The notes below the pieces were generated by a model. It had not been told where the DNA came from, made no database searches, and saw nothing but the letters and a program-made list of their open reading frames with translations. A stretch of 64,000 nucleotides of DNA from Numidum massiliense (GTDB lineage: Bacteria > Bacillota > Bacilli > Thermoactinomycetales > Novibacillaceae), in contig NZ_CTDZ01000009.1 in assembly GCF_001375555.1 (NCBI RefSeq), positions 3,031,758-3,095,757 on the forward strand, written 5' to 3'. Of this stretch, positions 25,512 through 53,826 are shown piece by piece; position 1 is the stretch's first letter; each line of letters begins with the position of its first letter. A program made the position numbers and the translations under genes.

Positions 25512-27078
<1,567 letters not shown>

Positions 27079-48739: not shown

Positions 48740-48979
48740 CTAGCTTATTCCGAGTTCACGTTCGCGTAAAACTGTTTTTGCTCTGGCGATATCTTTACGC
48801 ACATGTCTAATGCGCGTCGGGTTTTCCAGTTGTCCGGTGGCCATTTGAAAGCGCAAGTTAAACAGTTCTTCTTTCAGCGACGACACTTTTTGCTCAATTT
48901 CCGCAGTCGTCATGTTGCGAAATTCCCGCGTCGTCTTTTCTGCTTTCGTCAACTTGCGCTCCTCTTTTTTAGTTTTCAT
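48740..48979 (-). CDS. rpmC: 50S ribosomal protein L29 with N-terminal extension
   Basis: 79 residues from ATG 48979, against the usual 65 or so. The conserved protein starts at about residue 15-20 ([20 protein letters not shown]) and continues [20 protein letters not shown]. It is preceded by a Lys/Glu-rich [15 protein letters not shown] segment. The ATG follows GGGTGGTG and overlaps the rplP stop by 11 bp. An ATG at 49003 would be even longer. L29 lies at the nascent-chain tunnel exit near SRP and trigger-factor sites, so the extra charged segment may be exposed there. Confidence 0.92.
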
Positions 48980-49403
48980 CCGTGTCACCACCCATTTCTT
49001 CACGTTTCACGAACTTCGTTTTGATCGGAAGTTTGTGGGAGGCGAGACGTAGCGCTTCACGGGCAACTTCTTCGGAAACACCGGCAACTTCGAACAAAAT
49101 TTTTCCCGGTTTAACGACAGATACCCAATGTTCGGGAGACCCTTTCCCGCTCCCCATCCGTACTTCTAACGGTTTTTGCGTGACAGGTTTGGCTGGGAAG
49201 ATCTTAATCCACACTTTCCCGCCCCGTTTCATGTAACGGGTCATCGCAATACGGGCGGCTTCGATCTGGCGGTTCGTAATCCACGACGGCTCGAGTGCCT
49301 GTAGACCGTATTCGCCTAAGGTGACTTCCGTGCCACCTTTGGCCCGACCGCGCATCCGCCCGCGAAATTCCTTGCGGTATTTCACGCGCTTAGGCATTAA
49401 CAT
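48969..49403 (-). CDS. rplP: 50S ribosomal protein L16
   Basis: 144 residues. [20 protein letters not shown] start, [20 protein letters not shown] and [20 protein letters not shown]. Binds near the A site. One base from rpsC and overlapping rpmC. Confidence 0.97.
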
Positions 49404-50065: not shown

Positions 50066-50563
50066 TTATCCCTCCTTGTTCTCAGCCAGAATGATCGTGA
50101 TGTGACTCGTCCGTTTGTTAATTCGACTGGCGCGCCCTTGCGCCCGCGGGCGAATCCGTTTCAACGTGGCTCCTTCGTCGATAAAAATTTTGTCCACGAT
50201 CAAGTTGTTGACGTCCATGTCAAAGTTGTGTTCGGCGTTGGCGATCGCCGAGCGAAGCACCTTCTCGATAGTCGGCGAAGCTGCACGCGGCGTCAGACGT
50301 AAAATAGCTAACGCCTCATCGACGTGTTTACCGCGAATTAAGTCGGCCACAAGGCGCACTTTGCGCGGCGCAATCCGAATGTGGCGCGCAACGCATGACG
50401 GTTTCGCTTCAATCACATCGGAAAAGTTTTTCCCGACCATCTCGTCAGACACAGTCACTTTCGTAAATTTGTACCCATCGTTCACGCGAAACGTCAGACC
50501 GACGTAACTCGGAACAATTTCTTGTCCGTAACGGCCTCGGCGCACTTTATTTGTAGTTGCCAT
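50066..50563 (-). CDS. rplV: 50S ribosomal protein L22 with S19-like N-terminal extension
   Basis: 165 residues from the ATG at 50563 (AAGGAGG about 11 bp upstream), against about 113 in B. subtilis. Normal L22 begins near residue 52 ([20 protein letters not shown]) and keeps the tunnel beta-hairpin and [13 protein letters not shown] tail. Residues 14-50 ([20 protein letters not shown], then [17 protein letters not shown]) align without gaps to S19 residues around [20 protein letters not shown], with 15 of 37 identical by hand count. The preceding gene is the intact S19 gene, so the extension looks like a diverged partial duplicate of S19 fused to L22. An ATG at 50599, touching the rpsS stop, would add 12 more residues. 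Confidence 0.93.
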
Positions 50564-50598
50564 ATGTCTCTCTGCCTCCTTCCTCATCAATCGTGCCA

Positions 50599-50877
50599 TT
50601 AACGCTTCGTGCGTCTGTCTTCCCCTGCGTGTCCTCTAAAGGTACGCGTCGGTGCAAACTCGCCCAGTTTATGGCCGACCATGTCTTCGGAAATGTACAC
50701 CGGTACATGCTTGCGGCCGTCGTGTACGGCGATCGTATGTCCGACAAAGCTCGGGAAAATCGTCGAGCGGCGCGACCACGTTTTAATGACGCGTTTTTCC
50801 TTTTTTTCATTGAGGGCATCCACTTTTTTCAATAAGTGCTCATCGGCGAAAGGTCCTTTTTTCAGGCTGCGACCCAT
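50599..50877 (-). CDS. rpsS: 30S ribosomal protein S19
   Basis: 92 residues, normal: [40 protein letters not shown], and [20 protein letters not shown]. Binds 16S rRNA with S13. Complete and conserved, so the S19-like part in the neighbouring rplV is an extra copy, not a displaced one. Confidence 0.97.
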
Positions 50878-53695: not shown

Positions 53696-53826
53696 GACTT
53701 TCCCTCCCTCTTTCGCCTATTTGATCAACAGACAATTCTCCGCGGGAAAACCTCACACACCATGACAAAGCATCCGGGTGTGTCAGCAACCTCCCGCTTC
53801 ATCGCAAGTCCATGACAACATTCAAC

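Follow-up and report, generated by a model that had tools for sequence, protein, structure and literature searches.

The L22 gene (rplV) of Numidum massiliense, found in a window of 64,000 nucleotides of contig NZ_CTDZ01000009.1, encodes a ribosomal protein whose N-terminal extension is related to the core of ribosomal protein S19. It is probable that a partial copy of S19 was fused to L22 and that it is now a lineage-specific accessory domain on the surface of the 50S subunit. An S19-derived domain fused to L22 had been suggested in an earlier note on this DNA, and the suggestion was supported by profile searches, by a structure search with a model made without S19, and by finding the extension conserved in a second genus.

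To our knowledge, core ribosomal proteins seldom exchange domains. No report of an S19/L22 fusion was found in the open literature searched, which was covered mostly as titles and the beginnings of abstracts, with subscription papers largely outside it. A small-subunit fold carried on a large-subunit protein would offer a natural test of how a ribosomal protein fold comes to be re-used elsewhere, and of whether domains can be added to the 50S surface harmlessly.

The L22 gene and its extension

The S10 operon lies on the minus strand of the window, to which the coordinates of rplV, its parts and rpsS refer, and rplV is located between rpsS and rpsC, the latter recognised by eye. The rplV frame (50066..50563, 165 aa) was identified as an open reading frame and by Pfam. 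Its L22 domain proper, residues 58-159 (50087..50392), scored 138.8 bits against PF00237, passing the cut-off and covering the full domain (profile positions 2-103 of 104). Residues 56-165 align to ordinary uL22 proteins (PF00237, TIGR01044) with no large gaps, and the protein differs from them in having about 52 additional residues at the N-terminus. This excess, reported in the earlier note, is real, because the 20 ordinary L22s in the alignment start at residues 47-53 of the long L22 numbering. Residues 1-55 (50399..50563) were taken as the extension in the searches, on the basis of Pfam, the alignment and the S19 comparison; the region 50411-50563 to which the note had drawn attention corresponds to residues 1-51. 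The complete S19 gene that the note placed immediately upstream was present at 50599..50877 (rpsS, 92 aa, Pfam). A Shine-Dalgarno sequence, AAGGAGG, at 50575..50581 precedes the ATG at 50563 with a pairing energy of -15.1 kcal/mol.

Two other features were recorded. An S10-Clostridia ribosomal leader (RF03136) lies upstream of the S10 operon and on its strand at 53713-53810, with a score of 36.4 against a gathering score of 35.1. The L29 protein of the window (48740-49003) has, from its ATG, about 10 more N-terminal residues, rich in Lys and Glu, than the L29 of G001, which is a separate one-contig genome from a different genus of the same family.

Similarity of the extension to S19

Residues 14-50 of the long L22 align without gaps to residues 38-74 of the S19 encoded by the same genome, with 15 of 37 positions identical, exactly the count given in the earlier note; the figure for G001 is 12 of 37. 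When residues 1-55 were shuffled, none of 5000 shuffles reached the score of 75 obtained against the organism's own S19, the best shuffle scoring 50. For the G001 extension against the G001 S19, one of 5000 shuffles reached the score of 56 (best shuffle 59).

The profile search for S19 likeness that had been proposed as a check gave a significant result. Pfam Ribosomal_S19 (PF00203) matched residues 16-48 (50420..50518; profile positions 38-70 of 81) above its cut-off of 27, with 33.7 bits when residues 1-55 were searched and 31.3 bits with the whole protein. The G001 extension alone scored 29.3 bits, and the whole G001 L22 scored 26.6, below the cut-off of 27. NCBIfam TIGR01050 matched the long L22 with an E-value of 7.6e-7 (29.3 bits), missing by far its whole-protein cut-off of 89.35. 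At E ≤ 0.001, PF00203 matched the N. massiliense genome in two places, the S19 gene and the L22 extension, and a search of G001 by itself for S19 likewise gave two places (136.6 and 28.7 bits). A chance likeness to S19 was ruled out by the Pfam score, the shuffles and the fold search described below.

Predicted fold

A full-length model built from 20 ordinary and two long L22s had a mean pLDDT of 81.7, with values of 82-86 over residues 11-60. In a fold search with this model, the 50 rows listed had lengths of 95-130 and identities of 40-71%, as expected of L22 chains, and two of the titles name L22. Because the full-length search gave L22-like chains, the extension was modelled alone, from a two-row alignment that contained no S19. 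The five extension-only models had pLDDT values from 80.3 (best) to 62.5 (worst), with a pTM of 0.57.

With the extension model, Foldseek placed S19 first in the PDB (best E-value 2.8e-4). Among the best 50 of 326 matches, the probability was 1.00 throughout, five had E ≤ 0.001, and 35 were entries named S19; the other 15 were ribosome entries in which the chain is not named. In the VIA comparison the best chain was the S19 chain 3a1p_B (Z 7.2, rmsd 3.1, 55 aligned residues), a Z under 8 being middling by the tool's own scale, with model residues 1-57 superposed on chain residues 24-79. For several other chains, model residues 1-57 fell on S19 residues 24-80. The extension is thus predicted to have the S19 core fold but neither the first helix nor the tail, since its model aligns to that part of S19.

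Compared with uS19 (PF00203, TIGR01050), the extension shares the gap-free match over residues 14-50 and the predicted core fold. It differs in having neither N-terminal helix nor C-terminal tail, in being fused to a 50S protein, and in having most of the invariant residues altered.

Distribution

A whole-protein search found L22 in 60 of 61 genomes, and a match beginning at residue 1 occurred only in N. massiliense (G000) and G001. In the other 58 the match began at query residue 33 or beyond; in the five genomes with matches starting at residues 33-37, the match runs through stop codons. Since the extension is present in two separate genomes of different genera, an assembly error was rejected.

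Within the order, a two-row profile of the extension matched 40 of 42 genomes, with scores of 136-140 bits in G000 and G001 only. The remaining matches scored 21-30 bits over columns 15-52, and at eight such loci (L035-L042) the match sits in the S19 gene. In the class sample, the extension was found in 2 of 398 genomes at E ≤ 5e-7, a limit chosen to exclude S19 itself, which would also miss an extension that had diverged strongly. The contig collection was scanned with the extension, both alone and as the two-row alignment, and relatives were not found there.

In the phylum sample, in which G001 is not included, a general S19 profile matched 388 of 398 genomes as counted from the genome table, with two matches in G000 and in G722. 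The latter was rejected as a second genome with two S19s, because its matches, to profile positions 1-68 and 61-81, are two parts of a single S19. In six further genomes (G032, G027, G041, G038, G056 and G035) L22 lies in an open frame of 152-214 aa; such a frame does not prove a longer protein.

Conservation and role of the extension

Between the two genera, 38 of 55 residues of the extension are identical, compared with 81 of 110 in the L22 core and 84 of 92 in S19. The pN/pS ratio was 0.33 in the extension (residues 1-52), compared with 0.22 in the L22 core and 0.09 in S19; with synonymous sites close to saturation (Ks 1.2-2.8), these estimates are rough. The blocks NKVRRGRY and MVGK are identical between the genera. 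Rough as these estimates are, the extension is under constraint.

Thirty-four columns of the aligned stretch are invariant in S19, as judged from 29 distinct S19s from 42 loci, those of G001 and N. massiliense itself included. The S19 residue is kept in both extensions at 8 of these columns, in one at 5 and in neither at 21. Because most of the residues that never vary in S19 have been lost, the extension is not a second working S19. The eight residues kept in both (G46, T48, V51, G54, V60, M66, V67 and G68) are all Gly, Thr, Val or Met, and the invariant Arg, Lys and His residues have been replaced, except for one Lys in the N. massiliense copy; two of the replacements remain basic (K32 to Arg and H69 to Lys). 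The invariant charged residues of S19 probably serve contact with RNA in the 30S subunit. This pattern, with Gly, Thr, Val and Met kept and invariant charged residues mostly replaced, indicates that the fold has been retained and that the surface is new.

The globular domain of L22 lies on the solvent side of the 50S subunit, near the tunnel exit. If the long L22 is incorporated into ribosomes, the added domain would therefore be displayed close to this globular domain on the 50S surface, where its basic N-terminal strand perhaps anchors it. The most likely role is that of an accessory, stabilising domain.

The main rival to this role is an accidental fusion of the S19 piece, which would have no ribosomal function of its own and would be kept only because L22 production or folding would suffer if the N-terminus were unfolded or deleted. 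We take this to be a serious possibility, although not the favoured one. The very narrow distribution and the loss of most invariant S19 residues are in keeping with it, and an unrelated domain found at the same end of L22 elsewhere (see below) indicates that the site tolerates additions. Against it, replacement differences per site are only about 1.5 times as frequent in the extension as in the L22 core (0.24 versus 0.15), and the identity of MVGK and the other block between genera perhaps goes beyond what the fold needs.

A passenger would also agree with the 23S rRNA comparison, in which an rRNA counterpart of the extension was not found. Of 14 23S stretches, those of G001 and 12 other genomes were aligned, a 446-base stub (G011) being excluded. 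In this alignment, insertions or deletions of at least two bases specific to the family were not found within mature 23S rRNA. Five runs of at least 2 bases had been flagged as candidates for a matching change, and all were rejected as lying outside the ends of mature 23S. The incomplete G007 and G036 were then dropped to leave 10 relatives, and in comparison with these there were at least six single-base differences at otherwise invariant columns, a lower bound because the G018 sequence aligned badly (61% identity); they had no clear meaning. The 16S rRNA gene of the window (25515-27078, 1564 bases) fully matched the model of 1533 positions and so holds about 30 extra bases.

Origin of the S19 piece

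We propose that, in an ancestor of the family, a copy of the S19 core (approximately S19 residues 24-80) was joined in frame to the 5' end of rplV; the simplest route is a partial tandem duplication of rpsS, which lies just upstream. In this reading the extension is translated as part of L22 from its own strong ribosome-binding site, folds as a small S19-like domain and, since the separation of the two genera, has been maintained by purifying selection.

The donor would accordingly be the neighbouring rpsS, and an origin of the piece in another organism or replicon is unlikely. Such a source would agree with the finding that the organism's own S19, with a raw score of 75, stands mid-list among the S19s compared to the extension. 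Within the order, S19s from another family reached 81, and two fungal mitochondrial S19 fragments also scored higher than the own S19, including one from Neurospora at 80. At the DNA level the extension and the own rpsS are identical at 59 of 111 positions, leaving no trace of a duplication. Nevertheless, some 37 diverged residues are unable to place any donor, and with rpsS directly upstream a local duplication is the simplest route.

Start site and translation

The first ATG is the predicted start in both genera. In G001 the start codon is at the same place, with a strong Shine-Dalgarno sequence (-16.5 kcal/mol), which it shares with a GTG two codons upstream. A start at the ATG at 50599, which overlaps the S19 stop codon, was rejected in the window gene (-1.4 kcal/mol), and in G001 the frame is closed about 11 codons before its start.

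It is very unlikely that the extension is outside the working L22, either removed by a protease or bypassed by an internal start, and serves expression or folding only, in the manner of ubiquitin. Ubiquitin fusions to ribosomal proteins are known in eukaryotes and resemble the long L22 in having a folded N-terminal partner on a ribosomal protein; the partner in that case is unrelated and is cleaved off. Internal codons offer some ground for this reading, as both species have an ATG at residue 42, and G001 has a GTG at residue 21 with -9.5 kcal/mol. The residue-42 ATG reaches only -2.3 and -3.3 kcal/mol, though, and the pairing at the G001 GTG ends beside the codon, too close for a normal site. 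Over the first 60 residues of the window gene, in-frame internal starts gave -1.5 to -5.7 kcal/mol, compared with -15.1 at residue 1. The earlier note had considered that L22 might start near residue 52; this start was rejected, because a good Shine-Dalgarno sequence is lacking at every internal start of the window gene.

That the domain still binds the partners of S19 (the 16S head, S13 and RimM), and so couples the supply or assembly of the 50S and 30S subunits, would fit the predicted retention of the S19 core fold but is highly improbable, given the loss of 21 of 34 invariant S19 positions in both copies and the absence from the extension of the S19 C-terminal tail, the main RimM contact region, which makes mimicry of RimM binding unlikely. 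According to PMC8073977, the RimM contacts are largely in this tail (residues 83-93), and two further S19 residues, 32 and 56, are named as close to RimM.

Other L22 fusions

A second addition to L22 was found within the same order, where L22 was recognised by pattern in 35 of 42 loci. In three genomes of one other genus, g17 (G024, G028 and G029), L22 stands behind the DNA-binding domain of the arginine repressor (PF01316, 38.2-42.8 bits, cut-off 27). The fusion genes (L031:1312-1827, L037:1699-2214 and L038:1696-2211) have AAAGGAGGG before the start, a good Shine-Dalgarno sequence. All three genomes also have an ArgR match of 98-102 bits at a separate place. In the class sample, a profile of the ArgR-type extension matched 3 of 398 genomes at E ≤ 1e-16, and these were the same three. 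The ArgR/L22 fusion resembles the S19/L22 fusion in having a domain added at the same end of L22, and differs from it in that the domain is the ArgR DNA-binding domain rather than S19, with a separate origin.

That a single order should twice have added unrelated domains to the same end of L22 was unexpected, and this is the most surprising result of the analysis. The separate ArgR capture suggests that the ribosome surface has an open slot at the N-terminus of L22, which could be useful in engineering as well. We put forward tentatively, and regard as rather doubtful, the broader idea that the L22 N-terminus, located near the exit on the outer face of the 50S subunit, serves as a docking port and has been used at least twice in the order to capture foreign domains that add lineage-specific functions. 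If this were true, the ArgR case might link the ribosome to DNA or to arginine control.

A fusion of L22 with a domain of unknown function is described by NF008917 (PRK12279), which shares with the long L22 the presence of an extra domain. The match of the long L22 to this model is restricted to the L22 portion (96.5 bits against a cut-off of 526). As the match is confined to profile positions 5-110 of 311, the extra domain of NF008917 lies behind L22, unlike that of the long L22.
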